From NCBI GenBank assembly GCA_033439255.1, contig CM065880.1:2542001-2606000 (forward strand): a stretch of 64,000 bases of DNA, read 5' to 3'. Positions 9,697 to 57,341 of this stretch are shown here, one piece after another; the first letter of the stretch is position 1, and the number at the start of each line of letters is the position of its first letter. A model generated the notes under the pieces. The model ran no database searches, was not told where the DNA came from, and saw only the letters and a list, made by a program, of their open reading frames with translations. The stretch is from Hericium rajendrae (Eukaryota > Basidiomycota > Agaricomycetes > Russulales > Hericiaceae). The translations under genes were made by a program, and so were the position numbers.

Positions 9697-10535
9697 TCAG
9701 CGAATTACAGCGAAGAAGCAAGCTGAGACGCACCCCTCGCTTTCGGATTCAGCATACAGGAAAGGGCAAATAAACTCCCTTCCAGGAAGTCTCTTCTGGT
9801 GCGAGGCTCGTAGTTTATCCGGACTGGAAAACGGTGAGAAAATGCCTCGCTATTATGCAGGAAATAGGTGGACATACTACCACTTCCAGCCCTCCGGCCC
9901 ACCGTGCTTCTCCCAGGCCACACATTCGATGACTCGCTCCCAATAGAGTTGCGTCGGCTTGTACTTCATGTAACCTCCCATAATCTCACACGGTAGGTAT
10001 TTCAGATCCCATGTTGTGACCTGCACGATGCGGGTGAGAAATCCGCAACGAGAACGGAGCGAGAACGCATTCAGCAACTAGGCAAGCATCTATACGCACC
10101 CTGTACTGCTGCTTGGCTACAGTCGCCGTGACCTGAAAAAGACAGAGTCAGCATGAAACCCATATTCGGAACCGCAGTGCTCACCCGATCTTCATGGTCT
10201 AACTGTGATTCGGGCCAGGTGGCGGGATCAGTAGGAGCGGGCTTTGGGGGACGGACAGGCTTCTTCGGTGCTCTTTTCCGTTTCCCGCCTACCATCTGAG
10301 GTGACGGCAGTGGATCTCCATCCTCCGCATTCCGAACCGCGGTCCGCTGACGCTTGGATGGTGGGAGTACCTCATCGCTGGCGTCGCCAGGGCTGATGCG
10401 CTTTTTGCTATTCATCTCACTTCCGCCGTGTGGAAGGATCCCTTCAGCTGGGTAAGAGCTACGCTCAGCGGCAACAACTGGGTCAACTGTGGGAGCTGCA
10501 GACAAAGGGTAGTGAGACCGTGCAATGTTGGTCAT
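9697..10535 (-). CDS. X1: XPA-C-like putative DNA-binding protein, type 1
   Basis: First member of the repeated family of this window; no named function. Exons 10535-10185, 10132-10100, 10020-9878 and 9823-9697 sum in frame to 217 aa. Exon 1 is basic and disordered-looking (SKRQRT, GGKRKRAPKKPVRPPKPA, nuclear-type) and ends DPATWPESQL. Exon 2 is exactly 33 nt (VTATVAKQQYR). Exon 3 has VTTWDLKYLP followed by VIECVAWEKHGGPEGWKW. Exon 4 has DKLRASHQKR. The AKxxY..xxxDL and AWxKxG..xG pattern resembles the XPA/Rad14 C-terminal DNA-binding domain. The C-terminal zinc-ribbon of relatives is nearly absent; only one CVSAC pair remains. Start chosen by the initiator ATG and family-like exon 1. Confidence 0.78.
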
Positions 10536-10893
10536 GAGGACAAGCCTGGGGGAAATTGAAACTCGGTAAAGGCGGGATGAATCGCGGGCAGAAGGAGAGG
10601 AAGGAGCAACAAGGCGAAAGCAACAAGTTGAATTCGTCGCGAACCTATAAGGCCTTCCGCTGTGCGGAAGGAAACCTAAAATGCTTAGTCAGGGATGTTG
10701 AAGTACCGTTCGCATCGTATTCAGCATGACGGTGGAACAAGCAGCGTGGATCGTCGTTGCCGCTGGATAGAGCGACGTGAGCGACAATGATCATGTCAAG
10801 TTGGGATTTTCACCACCAGTGTTGCGTTAGTAAGTGGACATCGTAAGGCCTGTCGATCTTACTCGGCATCATGGCGGGCTGCCGAAACTCTCC

Positions 10894-11226
10894 CTATGTC
10901 CCGGAGTTAGGCGGGTGACATTGAATAGTTTCGAGATGAGCAGCCATGCCAGGCTTCCACTCACAATGACCTGGCCTCATGCCCTCGAGGTTCATGATTG
11001 ATTTTGACAAGTATTCTACGTACAATCTCGCATCATTTAGACATGCGCGCAGAATGAAAAACCTACTCAGATACATTTTCACTGGAACGTGCGTTCCGTC
11101 TGCACGAAACGACGTTTCGACGTGATACATCCAATCCTGGGCAGAGTTAGGAACAAGCTGATAGATAGAATCGTTCTCACCGCGCATCTGCTCATCTGCT
11201 TTCGTCTTCGTCACTGTCTTCGTCAC
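10894..11226 (-). pseudogene. Conserved unknown segment upstream of X1
   Basis: A translatable stretch of unknown function just upstream of X1 in the same direction. It overlaps the end of the F-box gene by a few codons in another frame. It contains WMYHVETSFRADGTHVPVK and NLEGMRPGHCEWKPG. The second motif recurs upstream of X2 (near 15640-15730) as NLEDMRPGCLEGKSG, and the DNA around it is also alike (tggcctcatg.cctcgaggtt). It is either an exon of a small uncharacterised gene or a gene relic duplicated together with the X genes. Confidence 0.4.
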
Positions 11227-13716
11227 TGTCGTCGTCGTAATCGCTATCCTTCTGCCACCTGACTTCTGGTACGATCTTCTCTAGCTTTTCCACAAAATTT
11301 TCCTTGCTGCTCCGAGTCTGCCATCCAATGGAGACCGTTCGAATGGTCTTGACCTTCTGGCGGGTGCCGAGGTGCTCCAAAAGATCCTCTTCAAATGGAA
11401 TATGCACTATCTCATTGACGCGATCGAATTGGATGCCGTCCAGGGTGAGACGATTCAGGTTTGGGAGGAAAAGTACTGTACCATTTAAAACGGTTCGTCA
11501 GTCACGCGTCACAAGGCCCTCTGACGAGACGAAATCTGACCCTCGTCACAGGTCACAGGATAGTCTGACGAAACGGTTTTTCGAGTGTCTGAAAGCATGA
11601 AAATGCCAAGAATGCCAAGAATTTGAGCCCCATAACGCTTCATGGCGTCGGCACATTGACCTCGTATTTCTCCGGGCCACCACACATGATCTTGAGGTGC
11701 AACAAATCGCCTCGGCCACGGCAGCCTGAGCGCTAGGCCCGGACTCAACAATTGAGTGCACGCGCACCTTGCGCTTGCGCTTGGACGCCGGGCGCGGGAG
11801 GGCGCAGGCAGCTGCGAGAGGACAGCGGATTGGTGCCTGTCGAGAGGGCGACACCGGCAGACAGGCAGCATTAGCAGTGACTTGCTGCATTGACATTGAG
11901 TGTGATTTCGAGTACACCACCTACGATGCCACCATTGCTTGAGCAATGTACCTTGCGTATACACCGCTACACATCGTACGTATGTGCGCTTGTAAGTGTG
12001 CTACTCCTTCTCGGACGAAACGGCATGTTGACGAAAATTTGTCTCAAGTCACGGCTACATCCTCGCAATGACGAATTGACAATTTCGTCAGGTCCGTCAC
12101 AGTCACAAGGGGCTGACGAACCGTTTTAAATGGTACAGTATTTCATCGCAGGCCGTGTCCCCGAGAACGCACGTGGCCAATGCAGTGCAGAATGCAAGCA
12201 TCTGCGAATGGTCACAATGAAGTTCGACTTCCTTGACATCCCTGCACCGTCCGAAGGTATTGATCCATTCTTGTGTTGTTTCATATGGCCGTATCGGCTC
12301 ACGTGGCCTATTCCAGATAAATGGGAATTTGACCTGTAGATGTTGTATAGTTTCTATGGAGAACTTATGGCACCAGACGGAGATAGTTTGGGACACCTCC
12401 GGGGGAGAGAGCTGACGGAGAGATCGGCCATTGGATACGTGGGTGGTTGCGACTTCCCCACTACTCCGGGAAATAGAGAAATTAAAACGTAACCAATGGA
12501 TGTCAAGGATTAGGGATTTCAAGGATGTCTGCTCTCTGTTCACGTGTCCATGGAACAGAGAATCGACATCACTGACCATCTGTGCCTTGTCATCGCCATA
12601 TAGTTGTAGATCGCAGAAGGACGGGATTCTGATGTGTTTGAGGAATTCCGAGCACCGAATTGCATGGTTGAATTCTAGTGCCAATGATTTGAGACATGGC
12701 AATTCTATGATGGTCTGGTTGGTGGAGGGTCCCGAGCTCGCAGGAAGGCAAGCCTTTAGATACAGTTTCTGCAAGGCAGACATATTACGCAGGCCATGCA
12801 GCAGTTCATCGAATGGTGACACAGCTGGAGATTGTTCATCATCCGCAAGCCCTGTCATAAATCCTTCCTTCCTACCCCCATTCATAACCGTGAGGTGTGT
12901 CAAGTTGTGAAAAATCGGAGCCGACCAAGGGATGTAGACATTGCACAAATCCACAGAGCGAAGCATAGGTGCATGCTCCTGGAATATGTGTGCGGGCAGT
13001 GAAAGAGTTTTGTGAGCATTGTACTGAGATAGATTCAGATTTCGCAGAACATTGGCTGGAAACGACAGCATCGGCTGTACGATAAGCAGCAAGTTGGATG
13101 CCCCTTGTACACAAACGGTTAAGTCGCGGATGCGAGGGACGTGTTCGGAGAGCTCTTCACCGCGGGGACCTGTGGCGATGTGGCTTCGGAGCGAAACTGA
13201 CACGGGTGTCGACCTTCCACGTGCAAGCACCGCTTTCAGCCAGGGCATGCTTAAACCACTATGAATCATGCTCCAGACGTGAGGATAATGCAGGGCGGTT
13301 TTGCGCCAATTCTTGCATACATGAGTTACCCGCAGCCAACCAAGTTGTCCCGGGACCTTGGTTTCCGTGGCCATTTTAGGTGGGTCGATCTCTGCGCAAC
13401 ATATAAATACGTGGGCAAGGATTTCTGAGGGAAGGTGAGAGACCGGAGACAGCGCATTGCGTGCTGTGCGTAATGCATATATGGCCGCATGCATGGCTGC
13501 CAATTCATTGTCTATCGTCTGGCGAGCATGAGCAAGATCATCGGCATTTTGGGGGAAGGGGGTGTTCTGGATGTGAGAAAGCCTGGTTCGGGCATAAGCC
13601 GACCAGAAATCACTTGCGCTGAATGCACATGCAGCGCCGATGTCAGTAATCTTCCTTATTTACCAGCGAAGCATAGGACAAAAGTGCACTGACTTTGGAA
13701 TTGGCTGACTTTGCAT
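11192..13716 (-). pseudogene. F-box/LRR-like gene interrupted by a DNA element
   Basis: Substrate-receptor-type F-box protein of the kind greatly expanded in mushrooms. Exon 1 13716-13664 (MQSQPIPKSVHF) joins exon 2 from 13618 after a 45-nt intron. The F-box itself reads LSPVSHLPSEILAHVF and is followed by leucine-rich segments. The reading runs to 12139, is broken by the 663-bp element at 11476-12138, and resumes at 11473 (LFLPNLNRLTLDG) to a stop at 11192 after an acidic DSDYDDDSDEDSDEDESR tail. Leaving out the element and one TA copy, the two parts are in frame and would give 604 aa. As it stands, translation ends within the element (YHLKRFVSPL then stop), losing about 95 C-terminal residues. 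The insertion therefore looks recent, or the shortened protein is tolerated. Confidence 0.85.
11476..12138. mobile_element. 663-bp non-autonomous DNA transposon (MITE) with 26-bp perfect inverted repeats
   Basis: Left end CTGTACCATTTAAAACGG.. and right end ..CCGTTTTAAATGGTACAG are exact inverted repeats of 26 bp, flanked by a TA on each side (11474-11475 and 12139-12140). TA duplication is the hallmark of Tc1/mariner-type elements. Further inside, several short CGTCA/TGACG motifs occur near both ends. No transposase reading frame is evident. It sits in the coding exon of an F-box gene, whose frame is restored exactly when the element plus one TA is removed, which confirms the boundaries. Confidence 0.9.
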
Positions 13717-14311: not shown

Positions 14312-15449
14312 TCAGGTTTCATTTTGCTCTGGAACGGTGCGGGCACTGCGATGCTGGAAGTTCAGCGGTGAGCAGAGCGCGAACAGACACTGACATACTT
14401 CAGACAAGGCGTGCACAGGCCACCGACCCACAATGGGGATCCTGAAAATATGTATGCTCCACAGGGACATTTCTTTGTGTATACGAAATCCCAGATTGGA
14501 ATCGTAAAAGGCGTCGCAGGATGCTTCTTCGTATATATTTCTCTCAGCCTGTTCAACCTGATCATGGTGTGGAAGGACCGGACATGAGTGATCAGATGGC
14601 TGAACATCGTGCATTCTATACTCACTTCCACTCCCAGCCTTCGGGTCCGCCATGCTTTCTCCAGGCTCGGTACTCGACGTCGCGAGTCTTGTACAGTTTC
14701 ATTGGATTCCAATACGCAGGCCCATTCTTGCTACGCTCTTCATCGTAAGTGAGGTCTAGAAGATCAAGCTGGGTAAGCTGTCAAGCATCCAAGTTAGACG
14801 TGTCGGTGGGCAGATGAGTTGATAGATCCAGGTTACGCACCCTGTATTCCCTCATGGCCGCTGTTGCACAGATCTGAGAGCACAATGAGACAAGAAGTAT
14901 CTGCATCGTAAGCAGGCATACCGTGTCGAAGAAAGGTACCCTCGAGTCTCGCCAAGTGGACGGGTGAGTGGCAGATGGTTTCGGAGGACGACCAGATGTC
15001 TTCTTTTTCTTTTTCTCCTTTTTCTTCTTTCCGCCATCTTTCTTCCTCAGAGACGATTTCTGCAGACGCTCCTGGACACCCTCAGCGGTCGCCTTTTTCC
15101 TGCCATCTGTCCGCTGCCGCTTGGAAGGGGCGGGTGATTCGGTGTCTTCAGCACTCGAACTTCGACTGCGCTTCGTCACCCTCGTCACAGGCTGTGATCC
15201 CGATTGCTGCGTCTCTTCGGCTTTGATCTGAGTTGAAAAGTTGGCGTCTTCTAGCTTGACCGAGGTCTGAGCCTCCTCGGTCTTGAGTGTAACCGGATTC
15301 TGCTCGGTTTTGACAGCTGTCTTCGTCTCCGCTGACTTTACTTCCGCTTTAGGCTCCACCTGAGCGGGTGGAGAAGCAGTGAGCGATGGTGGCTGAAGGC
15401 CCGCTGACGTCCTAGAACGTAACTGTCTGGTAGCGGTGTATACGGGCAT
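14312..15449 (-). CDS. X2: XPA-C-like putative DNA-binding protein with zinc ribbon and SUMO-acceptor motifs, type 1
   Basis: Exons 15449-14922, 14873-14841, 14777-14626, 14557-14399 and 14345-14312 sum in frame to 301 aa. Exon 1 (176 residues) has a run of canonical SUMO-acceptor motifs (VKTE, LKTE, VKLE, IKAE) spaced 9-14 residues apart, then lysine-rich nuclear stretches and HPSTWRDS. Exon 2 is the 33-nt family exon (ICATAAMREYR). Exon 3 has LTQLDLLDL and PMKLYKTRDVEYRAWRKHGG. Exon 4 carries the basic helix LREIYTKKHP and a zinc-ribbon-like CPCG..CTPC pair. Exon 5 adds ten residues. The PMKLYKTRDVEYRAW block is the closest in the window to XPA (where I recall GDMKLYLKLQ). Function unknown. 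Confidence 0.8.
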
Positions 15450-15599: not shown

Positions 15600-15754
15600 A
15601 CCGAATTCGACATGGTCCTGGACTTAGGCGGATGGTACACAGCGTGAGTGGTGAGTGGCCATGTCAGTCCTGACTTACCCTCGAGGCAACCTGGCCTCAT
15701 GTCCTCGAGGTTACGGCCAGGTATATGATTACTCTGGACAACAGTCATATACAT
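15600..15754 (-). pseudogene. Relic of the conserved segment also found upstream of X1
   Basis: Contains NLEDMRPGCLEGKSG on the minus strand, matching NLEGMRPGHCEWKPG upstream of X1, with similar flanking DNA. Located about 150-300 bp upstream of X2, in the same relative position. I infer duplication of X genes together with their 5' flank. The rest of 15450-15861 shows nothing else. Confidence 0.45.
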
Positions 15755-17484: not shown

Positions 17485-18962
17485 CTACAACTTCGACTCC
17501 AACAGCCCATCCACAGCTCTCCCCATCAACCGCCGTCTCCTGCGCTTCTCCTCCCTCTCCGCTTCCTTCACAGCCTCACGCGCCCACTCGCCAAGAGCGG
17601 CTACGAACTTGTTAACGTCCTCCTTGGTCAGGCCCGCGTGCAGACACACTCTGACGCGGTCGAGCCCTTTGGGGACGGTCGGCCATGTGATGGGGCGCGC
17701 ATTCATCCCGCGCTCGAGGAGGAAAGCCGAGAGGGGACGAGGTTGGGGAGTAAGAAGCGGAATTATGGGTGTTGGGGGAAGATCTGATAGTGTCTGCAGG
17801 TATGGAGGAAGGGAGACTATGGTAGAAGGGATGGTGGCGAGTTCTATACGGAGAGCATTGAGGAAGTGACTTGTCAGGTCAAGAAGCTGAGTAGCCAGCT
17901 GGAGAAAAGTTAGATCTCGGCCCACGCAAGCTGTATACGACTCACCTTCCCAGCTGTTCCATCCTCTAGCATGTCGAAGGAACAACCAGCAGCAATTATG
18001 TTCGCATGGCTGAGCGAAGTCGTGTAGATTAGTGGTCGGGCGTAATTGATCAAATAGTCGCGCAGTAGGGTATTCGTCAATATTACAGCTGTCATAAGAA
18101 TTCAGAAGATCAATCAACTAGAGTTGGAAGGATGATACGTACCGCCAGTAGCAGCCAACGCTTTCCCGAATGTATGCAGCCGTGCGAGGACCTTATCCTC
18201 GAGCCCCATCATCGCAACCACACCCCGCCCCTGCGGCCCATAGATCCCCGTCGCATGCGCCTCATCCACCACGAGATACCCATTCCCCCTCGGGAACAGC
18301 TCCTCAAGCAGCGCGACGATCTCCGCCAGCGGCGCCATCGTCCCATCCATACTATACACGCTCTCAACCGCCACAAACACGCTCCGCCCGCCCTCCCCGA
18401 ACCCCGCGCGCTCGCCCACCAGCCGCCCCAACACCGCCCTCAACTTCAGCACTTCGTTGTGCCCGAAGGTATATTGGGAGCCGGCGGCGCGGCCCGCGCG
18501 CACGCCGTCGTGCACGGACGCATGGATGTACTCGTCGCACACGACCGCGTCGCCCTCCTGCGGCACGCACGCGAAGAACCCCGCGTTCGCGTCGAAGCCC
18601 GAGTTGAACAGCAGCGCCGCGGGCGCGCCGAAGAACCCCGCGAGGCGCGCCTCGAGCGCGGCGTGCGCGGTGCCGTTCACGAGCAGGCGCGAGCCGCCCG
18701 AGCCGAGGACGTCGGGCGCGGCGGCGAGCGCCGCGAGGAAGTGCGCGCGGAGGGCGGGCGAGGTCGAGAGCGCGAGGTAGTCGTTCGAGGAGAAGTTTTG
18801 GTAGGGCGGCGCGGAGGGGCGGGTGGGCTCGGGGAGCCGCCGGCGGATGAGGCGGTCTTCGCGCGATGCGAGCGCGGCGGCGAGCTTTTGGTCGAGAGAC
18901 GGCGGTGCGGGCATTTGCGCGATGGTCGTGGTCGTGGTAGAAGGAGGGTATCGGACTGTCAA
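17485..18962 (-). CDS. BIOF: 8-amino-7-oxononanoate synthase-like enzyme (BioF), peroxisomal signal
   Basis: PLP-dependent alpha-oxoamine synthase that condenses pimeloyl-CoA with L-alanine, the first committed biotin step. Exons 18962-18143, 18088-17946 and 17898-17485 give 458 aa. Visible motifs: SSNDYLALS near the N-terminus, GSGGSRLLVNGT, the PLP-ring Asp in DEAHATGIYGPQGRG, and the PLP-lysine in HTFGKALAATGG (about K267). The protein ends ESKL: the last three residues SKL are a peroxisomal targeting signal type 1. Peroxisomal BioF is established in Aspergillus and plants. The C-terminal KRRRRRL stretch is unusual. Exon 1 is very GC-rich compared with its neighbours. A second start (MPAPPS) lies 16 codons downstream. 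Confidence 0.9.
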
Positions 18963-33348: not shown

Positions 33349-34430
33349 ATGCTTGTCCATACGAATGAACCACCTTCCGGAACTGTGCGCGTTGCGCAGC
33401 CGCCTCCTGCTCCTCCTGTCACTCCTGAAGAGGCCATCAAAACGGAAATCAAGACAGAGGATATGGAGGGTATCATAATGACAGACTTGCCCAACAAAAC
33501 TGAGGAGACGGAGATTTCAGTAGATTTCAAGAACTTAGCTATCACGGACGTCGAGAAGACAAACAATTCATCCTCTTTGGGCCCCAGCAACTCCGCCGTT
33601 CGCCAGCGATATCGTGAACTAGGTAGCAATACCGCCGGAAGATCGTCAGGCACAAGGCGTCAGCATACCGCTGTACAACCGTACGGACAACGCCCGCAGG
33701 CTCGAGCTCATGGCAACGACGTTCGCCCTCCGAAGCCTGCGCCCACTGACCCGTCGACCTGGCCCGAGTCTACGTTGAATCCTTTCGATAGGGTAAGGGA
33801 CTCGCTCTTCAGTTCGATTCTGGCTAATCTACTGCCCCTATCTGCCAGATCAGTGCAGGACATGCCAGGAAGTACTATAGGGTACGTGGTAACCGAATAT
33901 GTGCTGAGATATTTTTGTAGCTGGTCACTGAATCCTCCTCTCAGCTTAGTCAAGAGGAGCTCTCCGGGTTGAGGTTCATCGTGAAGGCGAGTCGGAACAA
34001 GCCTTACGCCGCACGTTGGAACCCAATGCACCTATATAAGACCTACGAAGTCGAGCGTCTGGCCTGGGAGAAGCACGGCGGGCCTGATGGTTGGAAATGG
34101 GAGTAAGTGCGTTCACTTTTATCTATACGAGTTACTCTGATGTTGCCCTCGCAATCAGACTGGATAGGCTGCGAGATTTGTATGCGAAAAACCATCCGGG
34201 GAAGCGTTTTGCTGCTCCTGAGTCAAGCCGACGCTCTAGAACGGTTCCTCAGCGTGTCAATCAGGCCCTCGAAGAACTGTGAGTGGTTCATCCATCTAGC
34301 AGGTCTCAATGACCCACCTTGCCGCAGCCTCAATGATGATTCCGATGAAGCGTATATTATGGACGATGGCACTGGCTGCTGTGACACTTGTGACAACATT
34401 TGTGCTGCGTTCGCATATGTTGGTCAGTGA
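33349..34430 (+). CDS. X3: XPA-C-like putative DNA-binding protein, type 1
   Basis: Exons 33349-33792, 33849-33881, 33945-34102, 34159-34278 and 34328-34430 sum in frame to 285 aa. Exon 1 contains overlapping SUMO-acceptor motifs (AIKTEIKTED) and ends PPKPAPTDPSTWPESTL. Exon 2 (33 nt) is ISAGHARKYYR. Exon 3: LSQEELSGLRFIVKASRNK, then WNPMHLYKTYEVERLAWEK and HGGPDGWKW. Exon 4: LDRLRDLYAKNHPGKRF. Exon 5: a Cys-rich end CCDTCDNIC. The start MLVHTNEPPSG is the first ATG after a CTCAG that could be an acceptor, so a 5' UTR intron is possible. Best-preserved type 1 member together with X4. Confidence 0.82.
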
Positions 34431-35003: not shown

Positions 35004-36105
35004 ATGTCAACATCGGTCGAAAGCTTGACGACGCCCGGGCGCAGGACGAGCGCCCGATTGGGCACACAGGCTCCTGTCGTGCATATGCAGCCAACCGCTC
35101 CGACGCCGGAATCCGACAAGGCTCAGCAGGACTCCAAGGCGACTGCACCTAACGAGGCGTCAAAGGCGCTCTCAGTCACTGGTATGGAGGACTCACAGAC
35201 GGTTATCGAGCCAGTCGCGGCGAAGAAAGGCAGAAAGCGCTCTCGCGCTGCGGCTGCGCAGGATGGCGTTGAGGGATCTGAAGATGCTAGCAGTTCCACT
35301 GCTTCGAAACGGAAGCACACTGGTTCTCAAGATGAAGATGAAGACGCTGAAGGTACACCTCCTAAGAAGGGTAGGAAGGTATCCGGGAAGGCCGCTCGTC
35401 CGAAGAAGCCTGCTCCCACGGATGAGTCTACATGGCCTGAATCTAAGCTTAATGAGGATCGGACGGTAGGTTTCTGCTTTTCATATATCTGTACATCTAC
35501 TCACGTTCATTTTCGCCCAGATAACTGCAGGGGATGCGCATAAATTGTATAGGGTTCGCGCGCTTCTTACTTCCCATTATCCGTGCCTATACGTTCGTCT
35601 GAAACGTCTCTATCAGATCACTAAGCAGGAACTCGATGCGTCCGAACTCAAGTACACCACGAAAAGAAGCGGGAACGGACGCGGCGCATTCCGGAAACCT
35701 ATGCACCTTTACGTTGAGCGTGAAATCGAGCGCTTGGCTTGGAAGAAGCACGGTGGACCCGAAGGCTGGAAGTGGTAGTAAGTCTTGTGCACCCTTGCTC
35801 CTTCTAGTGTGCTCAAGCTGACCTCCTGCTAGCTTGGACAAGCTGAGGGCCACACACGAGAAGCAGCATCCGAACAAGCCTTTCCCTCACCCTGGACAAA
35901 TCGATGAGAGACTTGCACGAGCTTTCTATGCTCCTATCGAAGCGTGCGTTCCATGTCTCCTCTCACTTGATTCTCGCTCACCAATACCTGCAGTGAAATT
36001 TACGATGGAGAAACTCATGCTGACCCTGATGGTGACTATGAGTACCGCTGGGATGATGATTGCTGTGAGACATGCGCCAAGATTCAGGCCCTGTTCCATG
36101 GGTAG
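35004..36105 (+). CDS. X4: XPA-C-like putative DNA-binding protein, type 1
   Basis: Exons 35004-35465, 35521-35553, 35617-35777, 35833-35943 and 35994-36105 sum in frame to 292 aa. Exon 1: PGRRTSARLG, KKGRKRSRAAAAQ, KRKHTGSQDEDEDAEG (nuclear, acidic/basic alternation), PKKPAPTDESTWPESKL. Exon 2 (33 nt): ITAGDAHKLYR. Exon 3: ITKQELDASEL, FRKPMHLYVEREIERLAWKK, HGGPEGWKW. Exon 4: LDKLRATHEKQHPNKPFPHP. Exon 5: acidic linker then CCETCAKIQALFHG. The intron phases are identical to X3, its tandem neighbour. Function unknown; putative nuclear DNA-binding protein by resemblance to XPA. Confidence 0.82.
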
Positions 36106-38107: not shown

Positions 38108-38118
38108 ATCAAATGCGA

Positions 38119-39183: not shown

Positions 39184-40496
39184 ATGTTTATGCCTTCATC
39201 ATCCCAACCATCAGCTGTAGGACAGGCTCCGCCAGTCACGGAACAGCTGCTCGATGCGGACGAGCATCAGCCGGAGATAGAGCCCATCATTCCTGTCGAG
39301 ACTGCAGGCGTTGACGATGCATCGAGAAGCAAAGTCGCAGCCAACGTGTCTAAAGGCAAGAAAGTATTTCGACAGACGAAGTTGTGGAACGACGAGGCAC
39401 CTGTCGTCGTGAAACGGCGGATCACAAGGAAGTCAGCCATGAAGATGCCGAGCACATCGCAAGAGAGCGAGTTGCAACGAGCGAAATGGTTGATGGAAGG
39501 GATTGAACTGGTGGAGCCGACAGGTAAGAAACTTCGGTCTGCGGTGGTGGACGGAACAGCACCACCGTCAACCCAATCTCAAGGGAAGAAGATGCCCAAG
39601 ACGAAGACAAAGGCGAAACATGGGGGAGAGAGAAAGGAATGTCAGGCCATGACAGCATCTACAGACGCTGTCCCAATTTCGCAGGCCAGTGGATCTCAAG
39701 GAACAAAACGGCATCGCCAGACGCAGCCGCATTCTGATGATGCAGATGATACGGAAAAGAAACAGACACCATCGAAGAAAGTGCGAAAGACGAAGGCAAC
39801 CCAGGCAGATGTATCTCTGGCGACCGATCCCTCGACATGGCCGCCGTCTCAGCGTCTCGACACAACGACGGTTCGTTCAGTTTGTGCTTGTCTTCTTACC
39901 TTCTGACTTACGCTTTGTTTTTAGATATTTAAGCAGCATGCTCTGAATTGTTACAAGGTGGTTCTCCCTTCCTTGTGATCTATTCCAGTCCGTGCATTAA
40001 ACTGACCTTCCTGAAGCTGAAAAAGGAAGAGCTTGCCGTGCTCGAGCCCGTCAAAACAACGCGCAAGAAGAATGGCGAGGAATGGCCGATGCATCTATAC
40101 AAAGCAGCTGACATCGAGCTTATTGCTTGGAAGAAGTATGGTGGACCGGAAGCTTTCGAAGCGAAGTACGTCTGTCGTTGCTTTGGAGACCCGTCGACGT
40201 CAGTATTCACCGCCCGTAGGCTGAATGCAATGGAAGAAAAGCATGAGAAGCGCAAAGGCTCTAGGAGGCCGTTCAGGCGCCCACGCTGGAGAATAGAGAC
40301 GGCCCAAACTATGGAGGGTCCAATTTCCAAAGAAAGGCTGTGCCTAAGCCTAAAGTACGTCTCGTCATTCTCCAATCTTTGATTTGGACTCTGCCTTCCG
40401 TAAGATGCACGCCGGCTGACCTTTTGTAGTGAATATAATCTCCAGTTTATGATCATAACGCCTCCGCCTCCCAGTGGGCTAGAGACTCCATTGTAA
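39184..40496 (+). CDS. X5: XPA-C-like putative DNA-binding protein, type 2, no zinc ribbon
   Basis: Exons 39184-39870, 39925-39957, 40017-40165, 40220-40354 and 40430-40496 sum in frame to 356 aa, the longest member. Exon 1 (229 residues) is Lys-rich with a repeated KxxRxTKLW-type stretch (KKVFRQTKLWND, also seen in X6 as LLKQTKLCFD) and ends ATDPSTWPPSQRL. Exon 2 (33 nt): IFKQHALNCYK. Exon 3: LKKEELAVLEP, EWPMHLYKAADIELIAWKKY, GGPEAFEA. Exon 4: LNAMEEKHEKRKGSRRPFRR. The CxxC pairs of the zinc ribbon are missing and exon 5 codes for a different end (ITPPPPSGLETPL). A GTG-started longer frame exists, but the first ATG (MFMPSSSQ) is chosen. Confidence 0.8.
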
Positions 40497-41103: not shown

Positions 41104-42276
41104 ATGTTTATTTCTACGGGAAACTCAGACATTGTGGCGTCTCGCTGCGAGCTCGGCCCCAAAGACAACCAATCTGTCGTCCCAATGCAACCGTCAGCTG
41201 CAACCACTGCGCACTCTGAGAACGACGAGCACGCGTCCATGGTCCCATCTCCACCTAACTTCTCCCTAGAGCTCTTGCCGGAGGGTGACTACTCCGATGC
41301 GGACTCGGGGGATCAGGGATCGTTGACGCAGACCCAGTTGTTGGGCGGCATCGCGAAAGGACTGAGATTGAAAGACGAACCGTTTAAGAGACCAGCGCTG
41401 CCCAAGGACAGAGTGCTGCTGAAGCAAACGAAGTTGTGCTTTGATCGCATTAGTCCTGAGATAGTCGAGGGAGCGACTCTGAAGAGAAAGAGAGCTGTAG
41501 CGAAAGATAGCAAGCTAATGGTGCAGACTAGTCTGGTGGAGGATGAGAATGCGGAGCGCGACCCTGCAACTTGGGGAGAGTCGGAGCTTTTACCCGCAAC
41601 TACGGTGTGTTGCTTCGTTTCATGTACAAGAGAAACACTGACCATTCCATGCACATATGTAGATCAACAAGACATGGGCGATGAATTGTTATCATGTAAG
41701 CTGTTCATCTCCCGTCTGCTTCATGAATCATGCTGCACTGATGGGTCTTTTACAGTTATCAAAGTCCGAGATAGAGGAGCTCGACTTCGACCCCGTGCCT
41801 AGGAAAGATGGGACAATGCATCTTTACAATGCGCGCGAAGTCGAGTACCGGGCGTGGCAGAAATATGGTGGTCCCAAAGGGTTCGCAAGAGCGTGCGTCT
41901 TCACATCCTCTGCATATCGGAATATCTAACCTTGAATCGTCTCGATAGGCTTGAGATTATGAAGGACAGACATGAACGGAATCACCGCAGGGGCGTGTTC
42001 CGTTACCCCAAGTGGCGGAGATTTACCGCTCGACGCCGTGGCAAACCTCACGTCGTCGAGATGTTGATCTACGATCTGGAGAAGAATATTAAGTACGTGA
42101 TAATTGCAGGACGTGGTTGTTATCGAATCTAATGCTTTCCGTCCAGTGACAGAAAGAAGGGACGGACAGGAGTGGGGAGGTCTGGGAGAAAGGTGAGCAC
42201 TTTATATTGCAATCGCTTTCTTCTTACTGAGCTCTTCTCGCAGTGGGCGAGGACGCATGGCATCGGGCGCAAGTAG
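41104..42276 (+). CDS. X6: XPA-C-like putative DNA-binding protein, type 2, no zinc ribbon
   Basis: Exons 41104-41604, 41663-41695, 41756-41892, 41949-42092, 42147-42192 and 42244-42276 sum in frame to 297 aa. Exon 1 has an acidic stretch, a SUMO-acceptor LKDE and VLLKQTKLCFD (shared with X5), ending DPATWGESEL. Exon 2 (33 nt): INKTWAMNCYH. Exon 3: LSKSEIEELDFDPVPRK, TMHLYNAREVEYRAWQKY, GGPKGFA. Exon 4: LEIMKDRHERNHRRG, FRYPKWRRFTARRRG. The two last small exons are purely basic (DRKKGRTGVGRSGRK, WARTHGIGRK) where other members have zinc-binding Cys. The tail could bind nucleic acid by charge alone. Confidence 0.8.
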
Positions 42277-43321: not shown

Positions 43322-44328
43322 ATGTCGCGGCCCCTTCAAAATTCATCCTCAGCAGCACAGACTGGCTTAAAGCAAAAGCCCACGAGTCCTGCGCCCTCGA
43401 CTCCGCATGCTGCAGAGGCGTCAGCGGCAGGTTCAGCTGTCGATACCCAGATGCCCGACGCGCCCAAAGGCAAGAAACGCGCACGCGATGCTAAGGCCAG
43501 CGAAAGTGAGAACGAGAAGCTGCAGACGAAGAAACGCCGTGCGGCAGCAACAGGCAGTGAGGGGAAGGGGCGGGCGGGGCCTGAGGCTCAGAAGGAGATT
43601 GATCCCTCTACTTGGCCACCGTCTAAGCTTTCACCAGACACGACGGTATGTTGTTCTTCGCATCTCATGTTCTTCGCATCTCATATTCTTCGCGTTGATA
43701 TTGATTCTGAATGCAGATCAGCAAAGGACTCGTGAAAGACTGGTACAAGGTGCGTTTACAGAACATGGCAGGATCACATATTATCCGGGAAATATTCTAA
43801 TCTTGTTCATATTAAGTTGACCGACAAAGATCTCAAGCCTCTCAGCTTCGTAGTTGATCGAAACAGAGAAGGATATCCGATGCACCTCTACAAGGCCGTC
43901 GAAGTGGAACATGCTGCATGGCAGAAGTATGGCGGACCTGACGGGTTTGAAGAGATGTATGATTCTTTTGCTGTAATGCTCTTTGAGCGCTTCAAAGCTT
44001 ATTCATGATGTTGACAGGCTGAAGAAGAGAGAAGCAGAATGGAAGGTTAAGCGTCCCGAAAAACCATTTCTTCGTCCGAGCTGGAAGAAGGTGAAACGCT
44101 GCCGCGATTGTGGTGGAGGCGTCTACGAGGATAACGCTGGCTTCTACAAAACGGAGGCCCAGTGTAACAAATGTGAAGCGTGAGTCCCGTTACTTCCTGC
44201 CGTGATTTCGTCTTGGCTATGTCATGCCTTCTGTCGATGCTGACTTCTGATAACTATCTAGCGAGGCTTGGTTCAATCGGCCGAAGAGATATATTCAGTT
44301 TGATCCTGATGACGACGAGAAACTATGA
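43322..44328 (+). CDS. X7: XPA-C-like putative DNA-binding protein with zinc ribbon, type 2
   Basis: Exons 43322-43645, 43717-43749, 43817-43956, 44018-44179 and 44262-44328 sum in frame to 241 aa. Exon 1: KGKKRARDAKASESE, KKRRAAATGSEGKGRAG and EIDPSTWPPSKLSPDTT. Exon 2 (33 nt): ISKGLVKDWYK. Exon 3: LTDKDLKPLSF, GYPMHLYKAVEVEHAAWQKY, GGPDGFEEM. Exon 4: RLKKREAEWKVKRPEKPFLR, PSWKKVKRCRDCGGGVYED, CNKCEA. The CRDCG..CNKC pair forms a plausible zinc ribbon placed after the XPA-like core. The end FDPDDDEKL is acidic. Closest relative in the window: X11. Confidence 0.85.
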
Positions 44329-44588: not shown

Positions 44589-44962
44589 GTATGCAAGACG
44601 TACGCGCTAGACAGCTACAAGGCATACTTGTTTATCCCTCCAACTTTGTGAACGGTCTAATCCCAGCCACAGCTTAAACCTGCTCACCTCGCAAGCCTCG
44701 CATTCACGTTCCAGACAAGAGTAAAAATGAGCGCAAAATGCACCTCTACAATGCACGGGATGTGGAGCAACTTGCGTGGAAGATACACGGTGGTCCTCAA
44801 GGCTTGAAGAATGGTGTCGTTTTCCTCTGGTTTCAAATGATGACATTAACTTTCATCAGGCTGGACGCGATGGAGAAGGAACACACACGCAAAGGCAAGA
44901 AGAACCCCTTCCGGCGTCCGGTATACGAATCCTCGTTCGTGGCGCAGACGGAGGTAAGATAG
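44589..44962 (+). pseudogene. X8: truncated and frameshifted X-family copy
   Basis: Three family exons without the first: a 33-nt exon 2 at 44589-44621 (VCKTYALDSYK), exon 3 from about 44673 (LKPAHLASLAFTFQTRVK, then after a one-base shift MHLYNARDVEQLAWKIHGG) and exon 4 from about 44860 (LDAMEKEHTRKGKKNPFRRP), ending at 44962. No DPSTWP exon is found upstream, the donor after exon 2 is GC instead of GT, and the zinc ribbon is missing. A degenerate copy of the type 2 group, about 300 bp downstream of X7. Confidence 0.75.
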
Positions 44963-45110
44963 TTAGTGAAAGGCTTATTCGGAAGAAGTGCATTCTCATT
45001 GCTTGCTCCTGGCGTGGCTAATGACTTCGTGTATAGGATCTAGGTGTATGACATACGTGTACATGGACCAACATGTGTAATAAAGCCGGACAAGCTTTCG
45101 CTGCTCCACA

Positions 45111-50653: not shown

Positions 50654-52455
50654 TGCAGAGGCGGCCGCAGGCTAGAGTCAGCAGCAAGCTGCGCGGTTGA
50701 GACTATCAGGGCGTATTGAAGACGCCGTCCAGATGTACGAGTCCAAAGAGAAGCGCTATTCACTTCTGGCAGCGTCCTGGAATGAAGACTAAAAGTGAGG
50801 AAGACTGTACTTAGTCACGGTGTTGTACTGATGTTGTGCAGGCCCGGCTTGAAGGCCGGTTTGGGACAGGATGGGACGGCTCGGCCTCACCTCTCGCAGG
50901 CCGAAGCCCGGCCGGCAGGCCGCAGCCTTCTTGATTAGGAATATGCATGGCGGCAGAGGCCGTTGTGCCACTCTCCACTGCCACAGGCTGAGTGCCAGCG
51001 TCCACGAGCTCAATGGCCGTGCGCACCCTTTTTCCATCTCTTCTCGATCATGTAAAGCATGTGTATGAGGTTCACTGATGGACGGCGCTCGAAGGCGCTG
51101 GGTGAGTAAGCCGAGTTTGAGCAGACGAATAAACTACAATGTCGTGGTCTGAGAGCTTGAGAAGGTGCGGTCCATTAATTCCTCCCAGACGACGTTCCAA
51201 CTCTCACTCTCTTCTTATTACCAGGGTATATGTCATTACTTGACTATCATTTGCAAGTACTCATATTGAAACTCCCTTCGGCACTCATACGCCGCCAGAA
51301 TTTACGATCTCAGCCCAATCAGCAGACTCCGAATGCTGTCGCGCAACCGGCGCTGCCTTCGGCTGTTTCTGAAGGAGGCGTATCGCAAGAAGCGGGCGTG
51401 ACATGGGAGCTCAGACAATGAAGCGAAGGAGGACGGCAATTAGCAGGCGGGGTCGAAGAAAGTGATGACAGGGCAAGAAGGCAGCAGCGAAAGCTAGCTG
51501 CAGAGCATAATCATTCCACTTGGCGGGGGACGAGGCTTTCGCCAAATAATGCAGTATGTCGTGTCTCCATCTATGTTCTTGGCATTGTGGTAGTAACTCT
51601 TTCCCAGAACACCCCGACAAGGTGTACCTCCGATATCCAGTTTGACCCGGAACACGACGAGGGCATTGACGGAGCGAGAAGCTGTAGAGGTCTAACGTGC
51701 TCTATCTCTCCATGTTCTTTTGGAACGAGCCGCATGCATTTGGCTTCTGCTTCAACATGATCTGAAACTCCGTGGCTCAGCGACATTGATGGTCATCGAA
51801 GTCGGTGCTGGCCGAAGTTGAATTGGTCCGTGCTCCTCCGCGCCTAGATGTTACTCTTACATGACACTGAGCACTTTCGACTCTGTGAGCGGGTTCTCAA
51901 CGGCTCAATTTGCATGACTCGCCATGAACTTCCGAAAGGCCACGGTAACTCTTGTGCGAAGACGCCGCCCTTGCGCGAACTTACGTCACGCTCTCGTTCT
52001 CTGCCACTACCAGAAGTTTGACCGCAATTGCAAATTGGGCCGGCCTTTAACGCAATTTCAAATCTGCGCTCTCCAGTCCATCTAGATTCCTTTGCCACCA
52101 CCACCATCGAAGAGCATCGAAGCCAGAGTCGATATTCCGATTCCACGGCGAGTCCGCCATCGACTTTGAAATTCCATGCCTGGGCGAGGCGGCATCTATG
52201 TAAGCAGACTGAGACTGAACAGTGAAATAGGTTTGTGGCCGGTGTGAAATTCGGTTCTACGCTGGACATGTGACGGCTGTGGGTGGTTATTGAACTTTGT
52301 GCGCGTCTTCGAACTTTGTCTATGTTGGCTTTGAACTCTACACGGTGTCTACTGAACTCTGCCTCCCCTCGCCCGCCTCGCATGACATCGTACAGGTATA
52401 TATACCTGGCACCCATGCCTGATGCGTCGCAGGTCACCACTGCGTAGCATTCTTC
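50654..52455. other. Long intergenic region with a GC-rich palindromic patch
   Basis: About 1.8 kb. Near 50838-50935 there is a dense set of ggccgg/ccggcc-type inverted motifs (ggcccggcttgaaggccgg, gcccggccggcaggcc) that can form hairpins; it may be a worn small repeat. A minus-strand frame of 284 codons at 51844-52698 overlaps X9 and has no recognised domain. No gene otherwise. Confidence 0.4.
50838..50935. repeat. GC-rich palindromic patch
   Basis: Clustered inverted GGCC/CCGG motifs over about 100 bp in otherwise average-GC DNA. No target duplication found, so the nature of the repeat is unknown. Confidence 0.35.
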
Positions 52456-53403
52456 ATGTTGACTCCCCCACCGACACCCTTTACGTTGACCCCCCCACCA
52501 ACACCGACAGCCCTGCGGGCGATGGGGCCGCCTCCGCCTCCGCTCAGAAAGCCTCGCACAGTCCCCAACCGAGCCAATCTCGCATCCCACGTCTCCGCAG
52601 GCACCAAGCGTGCACGTGAGGCAAGCCTCGGAGTTGAAGAGGGACGCGACGCCAAAGGACAGGATGCCATTCGCGCTCGCATCCCAGGACAGGACCAACC
52701 TGCCCTGCCCGACTGGCGAGCATCAAGACTTTCGTCGAATGCTACAGTACGTGAATCTCTCTTCGTCTTGACCGCATGCGTGTTGATGATCGTGGCAGAT
52801 AAGCAAAGACGATGCGAAAGAGTTGTACCATGTACGTATGCCCTTGCCTCCCGCGGGTCGCTTTGTCTGACCTTTTCCTTAGCTGAATGATGACGACATG
52901 CGAAATCTCAAGGACGGTTTCTGCCAAACTGGGAAACAGCATCTCAAGGATGTCTGCAAAGAAATGTCAGTCGAGCGCGCCGCCTGGGAGAAGTACGGGA
53001 GTCCGAAGGCCTTCGAGGCAATGTTCATCTCATTCTCTTGCCGCTTCTGTGATTGATGCTGAATCTTTCTGTCAGGCTCAACGAAAAGGAAGCTGAGTTC
53101 AAGCTTACGAACTCCGATAAAGAGTTTCCTCGACCAAAGGAGCCCGAGCCCTTCAAGCTTTGCATCACCTGCCGATGCGACCTTTACGAGGACGACAGCC
53201 CCGCGAACTTCGAGAAGGGTCAATGCTGTACGTGCGAGCTGTGAGTCCTGACTCTTTTCCTCCTACTTATCTGCTCAGTGCAAGCTCAGATTGACTTCTG
53301 TTGATCTCATAGTAAAGCCTGGATTATTCATCGGAGGCAGTTTGGTCAGTTGGGCCAACATCATGGCCAGGAATATTGTAACACGTGTGGTGTGTGGCAC
53401 TGA
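52456..53403 (+). CDS. X9: XPA-C-like putative DNA-binding protein, type 2, divergent core
   Basis: Exons 52456-52746, 52799-52831, 52883-53022, 53076-53240 and 53313-53403 sum in frame to 239 aa. Exon 1 opens with proline repeats (MLTPPPTPFTLTPPPTPTAL) coded by tandem accccc units and ends PALPDWRASRLSSNAT, in which the DPSTWP motif is reduced to PDW. Exon 2 (33 nt): ISKDDAKELYH. Exon 3: LNDDDMRNLKDGF, HLKDVCKEMSVERAAWEKYG. Exon 4: LNEKEAEFKLTNSDKEFPRP, then CITCRCDLYEDD..CCTCEL. Exon 5: WIIHRRQFGQ..CNTCGVWH. It has three Cys pairs, more than any other member. The LYK part of the core is replaced by LKD, so the strand/helix packing may differ. Confidence 0.78.
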
Positions 53404-54598
53404 ACCTGATGATGAGATTGCGGAGGGTAGACTCGATGCTGTAGCCCATGTACTATGATCGACCTGTCAGAGCAACCCATGTATTAGTATCGTACGATGA
53501 AAATATGATGATTTGACCGCGATATCTGGTTTCATTATCGGGGCCGCCCTGACGCTGATCAGCGTCGATCATCCAAACCAGCGGGTTATGAATGTTTGTC
53601 GACATCGTGAAGCACGGCACCGCCACGATGGCGATGATCGAAATCGATACGGAGGCAAATCTGCCATTTGCATCCTCCGCGCTGGGCGCTAATTTATTGG
53701 ACGAAACGGAAGCAGAAGACTCCGTCGTCATCAACATCTCAATGCCGACCATCTCACTTGCCCACTCACCGCCATTCGCAACGCCCAAGACCTTCCTGCG
53801 GTCACAGCATTGGACAAATCCCAGATTCTTTCACGTAACCACAACCCCAGTCCGGGAAAGCGAGAAACATCCACAGGATTCAATAGTAATGATCTCATCG
53901 ATACGACTTCGTACACGCACGTTTCTATGGCTTTCTGGCTTTCTCTGGACCTCTTACTCCATACGTCCGATCAATCGCATCAAGAACCCCCCTTCCTGAA
54001 TTCTTGCGTCCGCAGTCGGTTTCATTAGTGAAATACGATCTGAATATTCAGATCGCGAGTCGGTGCGACTGTAAGTTTGGGTCTCGTTCCGCGTCAGGCG
54101 CACCATTTGTTTGCTCAAACTGGGCTGCTTGTTTCTGTAGATGACGGCACAGGCACATGGCTTCTGTACAAAGGGACGAGGGACCAGGACGAGGCACTGG
54201 CAACGGGGTTATGCCCTGTTATGCCTGCTCGGGGCTGGCAATTTATTGGGGGGATTGGGCGGTGGTAAGTTGCGGTCCACGTAATCGGCGCGCAATTGCT
54301 AAATCTGGGATCGTCCGGTGATCAGGCGCATCGCGTCCGCGGCTGTCGAGTCGACGTCGCGAGTACATACTTCAGGCCTACCCACTTCAAGTCCATCCAC
54401 TTCAGCTCTCTCGAATTCAAGCCCACTCGAATTTTTCCCGCAAAGCTTAGCTTTAGTTTGTGGACGCAGATACACATCTTATCTAAGTTCGAACCTACTT
54501 TCGGATACCAGTCCTATATGAATTCATCGGTATGTCGGCTCATCTCATCTAGAAGCTATTTACATTGATATCATTCGTCGCAAACTAATCTAGAATTC
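53404..54598. other. Intergenic X9-X10
   Basis: About 1.2 kb. A 135-codon plus-strand frame at 53592-53999 starts MFVDIVKHGTATMAM but matches no family; evidence is too weak for a gene. Nothing else recognised. Confidence 0.35.
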
Positions 54599-55790
54599 AT
54601 GGAAGTTCATAACACCATCTCTTCACCCTCCAACATAGTGACTCCAACAATTACACCCGTAAGAGCTCCCATACCGGCCGGTCACGCCATGGACGTCATC
54701 GACCTGACCCAAGACGACGATCCCCCGTATGTGGACCATCCTTCTATAACCACCATGACCCTAACCCACAAACGCAGCACCGGAGATGGGCCTTCATCGC
54801 AACTAAATGACACCCTCCGACGAGCAACCCTCTCGGAAGACGGCTGGGAATTTGCCGACCCCCCCGAGCTGAACCCGACGTCCGTGGCTGAGAAGCGATA
54901 CGCAGACATGACGCAAGCCTCTACAGAGCAAGAAGAGCGAGAGACTGGCGGAGATGCGTCGCGTCTGTTGCAAGTGAGCACCGATACGCGTCAGATGCAA
55001 CTTGGATTTGGGATGAATGTAATTCGTAATTTTTGGTCTTCAGAAGCCAACAAAGTCATCGAGGGCGACGAACCGGGCAGTCGCTGTGGCCAGTTCGTCG
55101 CAAGGTGGGACGCAGCTATCGCAGAGAGAGACGCAGCCATCGGAAGGAAGGGTGCAGTCGTCACGGGGAACCCAGTCATCACAGGCAGGTACCCAGTCGA
55201 CGCAAGTGAGAACCCAGTTGTCGCAAGGAGGAACCAAACTGTGGCAGACGAGACTGAAGTCCAAGGGAGACATGATCGCTCTCGAGAAGCCCGATCCTTC
55301 GACTTGGCGAAAATCTGCACGCCTCCCAGCTACGACAGTGAGCCATGTGTTGCACCATCACCGCCACGCTGATCTAAACCACAAACAGATTTGCAGGACA
55401 GATGCTTTGAACTGCTATAAAGTGTGTCCCGCCTTCACCCCAGTTTGGCATGTGCCATGACTGACCCTTGTTGTAGCTGACCGTCAATGATCTTGGGGCC
55501 CTCATACCCACATACAAGACCTACAAGGGTCGAACGATACACCTTTACAGCGCCGTCGACGTCGAGTTCGCCGCTTGGATGAAGTACGGCGGGCCCGACG
55601 CTTTTGAGGCAATGTCAGTCGATATGTACATCTGTTACTACGGGGCGCTGATCCGTCAACCAGGTTGGATAAGATGCAGAAAGAGTGGGAAAGAGGAAGG
55701 CGCAAGACCCAGTTTTGGCGTCCCGTTTGGACGAAGACAAATCTTGGCATGGAAACATTGGACTTTGAGCAGATGCCGCAGAGAATTTGA
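54599..55790 (+). CDS. X10: XPA-C-like putative DNA-binding protein with SUMO-interacting motif, type 2
   Basis: Exons 54599-54973, 55044-55337, 55390-55422, 55477-55613 and 55664-55790 sum in frame to 321 aa. It has one more intron than its relatives, inside the variable N-terminus. Residues about 31-40 read DVIDLTQDDD, a textbook SUMO-interacting motif (hydrophobic core plus acid patch). The second exon codes for seven near-copies of a TQxSQ-type octapeptide (QGGTQLSQRETQPSEGR and so on) and ends KPDPSTWRKSARLPATT. Family exon 33 nt: ICRTDALNCYK. Core exon: LTVNDLGALIPTYK, IHLYSAVDVEFAAWMKYGG. Last exon: LDKMQKEWERGRRKTQFWRP with no zinc-binding Cys. Confidence 0.8.
55060..55255 (+). repeat. 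In-gene minisatellite of about 24 nt in X10
   Basis: Seven or so imperfect tandem units (cgcaaggtgggacgcagcta-like) in the second exon of X10. The repeats stay in frame and make a Gln/Ser/Thr-rich linker just before the DPSTW motif. Confidence 0.8.
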
Positions 55791-56393
55791 ACAGCGTGCT
55801 GACTGTGAGGCATAACCCAGTTTTGATACCAGGTGTGGACGTACCGAATTGATGGACGATAGTTTTGACCTTGGAGAGACAGAATACAGTAGGCAGTCGC
55901 CTCGAGCTTACTCAACCACCGTGTCTCGGGGCGATGATGGGCATGTTGATGTGCAGCTGAACGGTCAAAGTGTGGATGGTCGAGGTGTATGGATGGTCGA
56001 CAAGGGTGGCCACGCATATCGCTGCCAGCGCAACATGGAGGCTAGAGCGCAACGTCCGATCGCAGAGGGTTTCGGCAATGTCCGAGCCCGTCGCGAGTCG
56101 CGACGGCTGCGTCTCGTCTTCAGAACCGCTCACTCGTCGCCATCTCTGTCGATGCGGTCTACTATCTTTTGCGGCAGCGTAGTCGCAGTGATTCTTCAGT
56201 TCTACCATCAATCACAGTTGCGAGCATAAATAGGCACAGTAACCTGGCCATCTCGGTACGCATCCGCTCTGTATAGCTACCCGAGACAAGGTCTCCTGAG
56301 CTAGAGTATCATGATTCTCCTCAATTGTTCACCCACTGACACATAAACGTCCAATAGAGAACTCTGTCGAACAAGAAGACTTACTTTAACTAC
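55791..56393. other. Intergenic X10-X11
   Basis: About 600 bp; promoter of X11 expected. No gene or repeat seen. Confidence 0.4.
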
Positions 56394-57341
56394 ATGTCTT
56401 CGTCTACAGGTCTGTCCAGCCAAGCTGCACAATCCGCAGCTGCGGCAGAGGCCGTCTCCTCAGATGTGAAGCTTGCTGCTACAGCTGCCCCAAAGGGCAA
56501 AAAGAGAGTGCGAAAGGCAAAACCCGAGGACGATGAAGAAGAATTCAAGGACGCAGAGCCCAAGGCGAGGAAACGTCGTGCTGCGCCGAAGACCAAGAAG
56601 ACGAAGGAGGTATCCGATCCTTCTACATGGCCGCCGTCGACGCTCTCGCAGGATACGACAGTAGGTTTTTTCAACTTGAGCTGTATTTTGCTTGCTCAAT
56701 TTGACTCCGACGCTCTACACAGATTAGCAAGGTGTACGCCAAAGACTGGTATAAGGTCAGCTTCGTTCGTTTGGAGCCTTGCTATGGACCTTTTCAATGC
56801 TATAACTTCAATCCTTACAGCTCAGTGACAAAGACCTGGCACGTCTCAATTTCGAGTCCTTGCGCAATGACAAGGGATATACCATGTATCTCTACAAGGC
56901 AGCCGAAGTCGAACACATCGCATGGGAAAAGTATGGCGGGCCCGAGGGCTTCGAAAAGACGTGCGTTCAATCCATCTTTATTTCCGCTGACTCTGGTCGA
57001 CAACGCACGAATAGGCTCAAGGAGAAGGAAGAGAAATGGAAAGCCAAGCACCCCGGCAAGCGTTTCCCGCGCCCAGACTGGGTAAAAGTGAAGAAGTGCC
57101 GGAAGTGCGGGACCACCATCCGAGAGGATATCACAGTGTTCTTCGCAGGTGCTGTATGCAACACATGCAATCGTAAGGAGTATGTACGCCATTTTTTCTT
57201 GTTCGACCTCTGGGATTTGGACTTTTTGGGCCTTCGCTCTCGCAGATGTCTGATTGTCCTTTCTATAGGGAGGAAGCCATTGCAAGTCGCTCGCGATTAT
57301 ACGATCAATTCGACCCTCTAGAGGGCCAGCTGGATTTCTAG
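56394..57341 (+). CDS. X11: XPA-C-like putative DNA-binding protein with zinc ribbon, type 2
   Basis: Exons 56394-56660, 56723-56755, 56821-56960, 57015-57179 and 57269-57341 sum in frame to 225 aa. Exon 1: KGKKRVRKAKPEDDEEE, KARKRRAAPKTKKTKEV, DPSTWPPSTLSQDTT. Exon 2 (33 nt): ISKVYAKDWYK. Exon 3: LSDKDLARLNF, YTMYLYKAAEVEHIAWEKY, GGPEGFEKT. Exon 4: RLKEKEEKWKAKHPGKRFPR, then CRKCGTTIREDIT..CNTCNRKE. Exon 5: FDPLEGQLDF. With X7 it gives the cleanest picture of the type 2 protein: basic/acidic tail, XPA-like core, charged helix, zinc ribbon, acidic end. Confidence 0.85.

Follow-up and report, generated by a model that had tools for sequence, protein, structure and literature searches.

Background

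One of the closest described systems to the genes reported here is XPA/Rad14 (PF05181 XPA_C, TIGR00598). XPA is regarded as a single-copy scaffold of nucleotide excision repair (NER); the XPA domain binds DNA in a structure-dependent rather than a base-specific manner, and GGF is the ERCC1-binding motif. Here, we describe a cluster of XPA-C-like genes, X1-X11, located at positions 9697-57341 of a 64,000 nt stretch of Hericium rajendrae DNA (assembly GCA_033439255.1, contig CM065880.1, positions 2,542,001 to 2,606,000 of the forward strand). This stretch is referred to as the window, and all coordinates are given relative to its first nucleotide.

In two papers, Trp175 at the tip of the XPA hairpin is described as stacking on bases at the single/double-strand junction (PMC6599211, PMC9739396). 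One of these also reports an extended helix rich in Lys/Arg and, for human XPA, zinc-finger cysteines at C105, C108, C126 and C129, which corresponds to an x17 spacing between the two cysteine pairs (PMC9739396).

A clustered family with an XPA-like core

The cluster consists of ten intact spliced genes (X1-X7 and X9-X11) and one relic (X8), and it is broken up by unrelated genes. After the gene models had been rebuilt exon by exon, each of the ten intact models was a single open frame with one terminal stop, with GT..AG introns of 48-89 nt and an exon 2 of 33 nt in every case. The initial annotation had reported that ten genes and a relic share exon order, intron phases and a core, and this was borne out, with phases 0,0,2,2 in eight genes (X2-X7, X9 and X11) and 0,0,2 in X1 and X10, both of which end with the exon that follows the third core junction. 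When the 1991 stretches of at least 20 aa obtained from the window in six frames were searched (hmmsearch) with a profile built from the ten cores, exon-3 matches fell at exactly 11 places (E 3.4e-22 to 1.6e-12), and the remaining matches with E<0.5 were other exons of the same X genes. Phylogenetic analysis separated X1-X4 from X5-X7/X9-X11, with a support of 100/99 for what was the sole starred inner branch of the tree.

By profile and predicted fold, the core comprises, as in XPA/Rad14, a strand with a T-K-T-like stretch, a conserved Y, a DL helix, a hairpin before M-x-L-Y and a VE..A...GG helix start that is followed by a long basic helix. Unlike XPA/Rad14, the family has no zinc finger ahead of the domain, with four cysteines, if present, behind it; it also carries an extra S-T-W-P-x-S lead segment, scores below the curated cut-offs and occurs in many clustered copies.

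Pooling of the ten cores into one profile, and a search of the PDB (177,635 distinct sequences) with this profile, yielded ten matches at E<=10, each of which was a Rad14 or XPA sequence or the XPA-like SLC30A9 domain (best E 1.4e-5), while the reversed-alignment control gave five matches, all to ribosomal eL32 (best E 0.32). The kinship to XPA_C that had been proposed for these genes is therefore supported at the level of the family profile. The Pfam XPA_C search that had been proposed alongside it succeeded in part; matches at E<=10 were obtained for five of the ten single cores (best E 3.6e-5), but the best score of 24.0 bits stayed below the cut-off of 25. Similarly, the TIGR00598 rad14 profile matched seven of the ten cores at E<=10 (best E 2.9e-5; 23.8 bits vs a cut-off of 113.15), and neither curated cut-off was reached by any member. 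When whole proteins were used (X2 and X5 without the last exon, X10 as core only), XPA_C weakly matched two of ten (X3, E 2.3e-4; X4, E 0.036), and rad14, which was tried on X3 and X7, gave E values of 1.6e-4 and 9.2e-3, respectively. X3 is the top single-sequence match to XPA_C; in the PDB, its core alone matched Rad14 only with an E value of 0.03, and a chitinase was also returned (0.58). The pooled ten-core profile is thus much stronger than single sequences, and homology of the family to the XPA domain is, judged from these profiles, almost certain.

Structure prediction with AlphaFold was carried out for one member per subfamily, i.e., X7 (alignment of 8 rows, mean predicted local distance difference test [pLDDT] score 75.9) and X3 (7 rows, 71.4). 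In both models the elements follow the order E-H-H-E-E-H-long H (E, strand; H, helix), and ten-residue blocks of the core have pLDDT values of 79-95, save for 59 at the X3 hairpin loop. In a Foldseek comparison against the PDB, 9 matches of the X7 model and 8 of the X3 model had E<=0.001, and each of them came from XPA, Rad14 or an NER complex. Ranks 1-16 (X7) and 1-17 (X3) were occupied by XPA, Rad14, SLC30A9 or NER-complex chains taken as XPA; among the latter, 9pcp and 9pd3 are entries with an XPA sequence, and the rest were identified from the titles of their entries alone. The isolated Rad14 chains of 5a39 could be superposed on the models over 77-80 columns with deviations of 2.1-2.7 A and template modelling (TM) scores of 0.52-0.54 by target. 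The expected resemblance to the XPA DNA-binding domain was hence seen in both modelled members (two of ten), so that the XPA fold is predicted for one member of each tree group. By profile and by predicted fold, the family belongs to the XPA domain superfamily.

Cysteines and the relationship to the repair factor

None of the ten proteins has a CxxC before the core, in agreement with the earlier statement that a zinc finger ahead of the domain is lacking. Four cysteines after the core and basic helix, which the initial annotation had not mentioned, were found in four of the ten proteins, spaced C-x2-C-x17-C-x2-C in X7 and X9, C-x2-C-x16-C-x2-C in X11 and C-x-C-x15-C-x2-C in X2; one CxxC is kept in X3 and X4, and none in X1, X5, X6 and X10. 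The spacing in X7 and X9 is exactly that of XPA. The XPA_N profile, when applied to the four Cys tails, gave an E value of 0.29 over 9 residues in X11 and nothing in X2, X7 and X9, and other zinc families scored equally well or better (e.g., DnaJ_CXXCXGXG with E 0.0067 in X7). A PDB profile search with the four tails returned two unrelated matches and no XPA. A true XPA_N finger in these tails is thus not supported by profile; they may represent either a moved XPA finger or an independent ribbon.

The GGF motif is likewise absent from all ten proteins. Because the leading zinc finger and GGF are missing and the curated cut-offs are not reached, the genes cannot be assigned to the XPA/Rad14 family of repair factors, and very probably they do not encode the NER factor itself. 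A set of diverged XPA/Rad14 paralogues with a continuing function in NER, for example as a lesion- or stage-specific XPA, would be compatible with the XPA-like domain and hairpin and with the TIGR00598 matches of seven cores, but neither a Cys pair before the core nor GGF was found in any of the ten proteins, the cut-offs were missed, and ten copies within 48 kb are unlike a single-copy NER scaffold, which makes such a continued repair role improbable.

Putative DNA-binding features

In the PDB match to the X3 core, Rad14 carries a Phe three residues before the M of M-x-L-F, and the Trp of X3 aligns at this position. An aromatic residue three before the M of M-x-L-Y is present in X1, X2 and X3, and is shifted by one in X4, X5, X7 and X11. 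The segment after GGP/GSP has a net basic charge in nine of the ten proteins, comparable to the Lys/Arg-rich extended helix of XPA, and basic runs resembling nuclear localization signals (NLS) were detected with a simple pattern in the tails of eight.

The reading that we favour, and that we regard as reasonably probable, is that these proteins act in the nucleus as DNA binders that respond to DNA structure and use the XPA domain, and are not an NER factor; homology is shown by profile and the fold by prediction. The family is likely to bind DNA, whereas for a preference for junctions or distorted DNA the chances appear evenly balanced. The proteins may act like the XPA domain and recognise DNA that is distorted or branched. 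Their tail, with its basic NLS-like patches, would lead into one globular domain. As suggested by XPA structures, a beta-hairpin of this domain, with an aromatic residue near its tip, would insert as a wedge where single- and double-stranded DNA meet or where the DNA is distorted, while the duplex would be held by a long basic helix. Part of the family has four cysteines on the C-terminal side of the domain, whereas the zinc finger of XPA lies on the N-terminal side. As copies duplicated and their tails and hairpins diverged, the members would have acquired different DNA structures or partners, and they would serve to maintain the genome or act on chromatin where DNA structure is unusual, not as an NER scaffold.

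Several observations weigh against this reading. As stated above, the curated cut-offs of XPA_C and rad14 are missed by all ten proteins. The hairpin is the weaker part of the modelled core (block pLDDT 79 in X7 and 59 in X3), the models were built on just 8 (X7) and 7 (X3) paralogues with tails at pLDDT 37-64, and the Foldseek matches with the best E values, which are NER-complex chains, superpose badly overall, with root-mean-square deviations of 33-36 A for X7 and 15-18 A for X3. The hairpin aromatic is absent in X6 and X9, X10 has one only at -5, and the total of seven out of ten refers to related copies rather than to seven independent events and was counted without a chance control. Moreover, the post-GSP segment of X9 is net acidic, and SLC30A9 illustrates that an XPA fold is by itself no proof of DNA binding.

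SLC30A9 (ZnT9; PDB 2enk) resembles the X family in having an XPA-like domain with a similar profile and fold match, its E value with the ten-core profile (5.3e-5) being close to that of Rad14 (1.4e-5). A domain for protein binding, as may hold for SLC30A9, with no DNA role, could account for this near equality. However, the aromatic residue in seven hairpins, the basic segment in nine proteins and the NLS-like basic tails in eight, which are not a transporter context, count against this explanation, and a purely protein-binding domain has in our view a small probability. In SLC30A9 the domain sits in a zinc-transporter protein, whereas the X family has a basic tail and, in part, a Cys4 end; no Pfam match to a cation-efflux transporter domain was obtained at E<=10 among the ten proteins, searched with the same truncations of X2, X5 and X10 as above. 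The explanations weighed here overlap in part, and the probabilities given for them and for structure-sensitive DNA binding need not sum to one.

Motifs in the tails

SUMO-consensus-like sites (V/I/L-K-x-E) were observed in the N-terminal tails of X2 (four sites; 14922-15449) and X3 (two sites; 33349-33792). Compared with shuffled tails, X2 has 4 sites vs 0.31 expected (reached in 0/2000 shuffles) and X3 has 2 vs 0.13 (p 0.0065); all tails together have 7 vs 2.32 expected (p 0.005), in a post hoc test in which X2 supplies four of the seven sites and seven of the ten tails have none. The N-terminal tail of X10 also carries VIDLTQDDD, in which VIDLT has the textbook form of a SUMO-interacting motif; this candidate was rejected, as the motif class is loose and not enriched in the tails (1 vs 1.58 expected).

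Reuse of the XPA fold in sequence-specific transcription factors or in readers of chromatin would be in line with the basic tails, the SUMO-consensus-like sites above shuffles, the zinc-ribbon-like tails in four of ten proteins and a local expansion as in regulator families. Such a function is nevertheless unlikely, given that binding by the XPA domain is structure-dependent and not base-specific, and that the SUMO signal comes from a post hoc test dominated by X2. Decidedly less probable than a structure-sensitive binder as such is a more elaborate form of it, in which XPA-derived binders that read DNA structure would have multiplied locally in this lineage, with the finger moved behind the domain and SUMO-regulated tails, and would allow the fungus to detect recombination intermediates or DNA that is foreign or mobile; we consider this form quite doubtful.

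Reading by eye also revealed a QTKL motif common to the tails of X5 (RQTKLWND, 39370-39393) and X6 (KQTKLCFD, 41422-41445), and TKLWQTRL in X10.

Relatives elsewhere and significance

Among viral models in BFVD, the best matches to the core fold were giant-virus proteins (E 8.1e-6 to 3.6e-3). A Clandestinovirus RAD14 and a Fadolivirus XPA domain-containing protein are named as such, and proteins of Klosneuvirus, Pandoravirus, Satyrvirus and Catovirus with the same core fold are found under other names or none, including an F-box domain containing protein of Pandoravirus quercus and unnamed proteins of the other three. Unlike these viral proteins, the X family is located in fungal DNA. Pattern searches of viral and prokaryotic contigs gave 9 and 17 matches, respectively, with none confirmed; one short pattern was used for each, and the result says nothing on other fungi. 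Phage records gave one match with E about 1, and PHROGs gave nine families with one member each (best 0.0087).

Literature on XPA or PF05181 in basidiomycetes, mushrooms and fungi contained no such family in our search, which turned up a Cryptococcus ultraviolet-repair paper; as most subscription journals lie outside this search, this is weak evidence of absence. A cross-species XPA survey lists ZNT9 as the only other human match and states that distant homologues were removed if their domains differed (PMC10810185). We infer that this step could have kept a family like X1-X11 from appearing in such a survey. In the PDB and BFVD searches made here, SLC30A9 and giant-virus proteins were the only other places in which the XPA domain was seen. 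If the favoured reading is true, the fold would be in use as a DNA-binding module that stands alone, diversifies and has another domain order, the members would offer natural variants with which to test what parts of XPA are responsible for reading DNA structure, and there would be a name for proteins that curated XPA profiles do not call.

Gene models, age and maintenance

X1 and X2 are encoded on the minus strand, on which the initial annotation was silent, and all others on the plus strand; E values below are from the six-frame profile search. X1 (9697..10535; exons 10535-10185, 10132-10100, 10020-9878, 9823-9697; 217 aa; E 1e-16) has an XPA-C-like core without Cys4 tail. X2 (14312..15449; exons 15449-14922, 14873-14841, 14777-14626, 14557-14399, 14345-14312; 301 aa; E 6.3e-18) combines a W-N-P-M hairpin in the core with a CPC-x15-CTPC tail and the N-terminal tail with four SUMO-consensus-like sites. 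The modelled X3 (33349..34430; exons 33349-33792, 33849-33881, 33945-34102, 34159-34278, 34328-34430; 285 aa) is followed by X4 (35004..36105; exons 35004-35465, 35521-35553, 35617-35777, 35833-35943, 35994-36105; 292 aa; E 1.9e-19).

The second tree group begins with X5 (39184..40496; exons 39184-39870, 39925-39957, 40017-40165, 40220-40354, 40430-40496; 356 aa; E 1.5e-18) and X6 (41104..42276; exons 41104-41604, 41663-41695, 41756-41892, 41949-42092, 42147-42192, 42244-42276; 297 aa; E 4.9e-19), which has one further intron close to the gene end. X7, the other modelled member (43322..44328; exons 43322-43645, 43717-43749, 43817-43956, 44018-44179, 44262-44328; 241 aa), precedes the X8 relic (44589..44960, plus strand; E 1.6e-12), in which an exon-2-like 33-nt stretch and an exon 3 with a frame change, both read by eye, are followed by exon 4; a pattern scan found no exon 1 core motif nearby. 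X9 (52456..53403; exons 52456-52746, 52799-52831, 52883-53022, 53076-53240, 53313-53403; 239 aa; E 2.4e-16) has a divergent core, in which DPSTWP and MxLY are lost and VExxAWxKYGxPxxFE is retained, together with its Cys-rich tail. X10 (54599..55790; exons 54599-54973 [uncertain], 55044-55337 [start uncertain], 55389-55421, 55477-55613, 55664-55790; 321 aa; E 2.1e-15) requires an extra N-terminal intron, with 54974-55043 as the best candidate, and its N-terminus is uncertain because this intron has many possible positions. X11 (56394..57341; exons 56394-56660, 56723-56755, 56821-56960, 57015-57179, 57269-57341; 225 aa; E 3.4e-22) is the last gene of the cluster.

Synonymous sites are near saturation among the copies; the synonymous rate (dS) was undefined in 25 of the 45 pairs and exceeded the nonsynonymous rate (dN) in all 20 others, and third codon positions differed most in all 45 pairs (0.632 vs 0.415 and 0.403). 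Recent tandem duplication was rejected, since no direct repeats of at least 20 nt (13-nt seeds) were found inside 33000-45500 or 51500-58000. The copies look old for this reason, and they look maintained. Decaying non-functional duplicates or mis-joined exons might be suspected from the broken X8, the divergent X9, the absence of a Cys4 tail in six of ten proteins and the extra uncertain intron of X10, but with ten of ten multi-exon frames intact despite near-saturated synonymous sites, the codon-position bias in every pair, and uniform exon 2 length and core phases, both are very improbable.

The regions upstream of X1 and X2 have about 150 nt in common, including a 24-mer at 10969-10992 and 15689-15712 that occurs nowhere else in the window at up to 3 mismatches. 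Among the 45 upstream pairs compared, X1/X2 ranked first (z 10.5, a score reached by 0/100 shuffles) and X6/X9 second (z 3.9, above all 100 shuffles, 28 vs 27). The X1 and X2 cores are just 38% identical despite the shared upstream sequence, which could possibly represent a shared control region.

Neighbouring genes and elements

The short introns (48-89 nt) and the overall appearance of the genes suggest a fungal chromosome segment, probably from an agaricomycete. A reading of the region near 1000-4000 as SMC-like was made by eye only, and Pfam gave no SMC match on the one piece tried. Neighbouring open frames matched Pfam families above their cut-offs, namely aminotransferase class I/II (18114-18962), CoA-transferase III (24204-24899), C2H2 zinc finger (27152-28186) and Sec7-like HUS domain (48942-49646). 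The sequence at 11471-12143 resembles a miniature inverted-repeat transposable element, with 42-nt terminal inverted repeats that are 86% complementary and 589 nt apart; on the right it extends into the 3' end of a minus-strand open frame (12103-13503), which has an F-box-like match below threshold (22.8 of 24.3 bits). A possible second small transposon lies at 37367-38099, where 23-nt inverted repeats, 96% complementary, are 687 nt apart.

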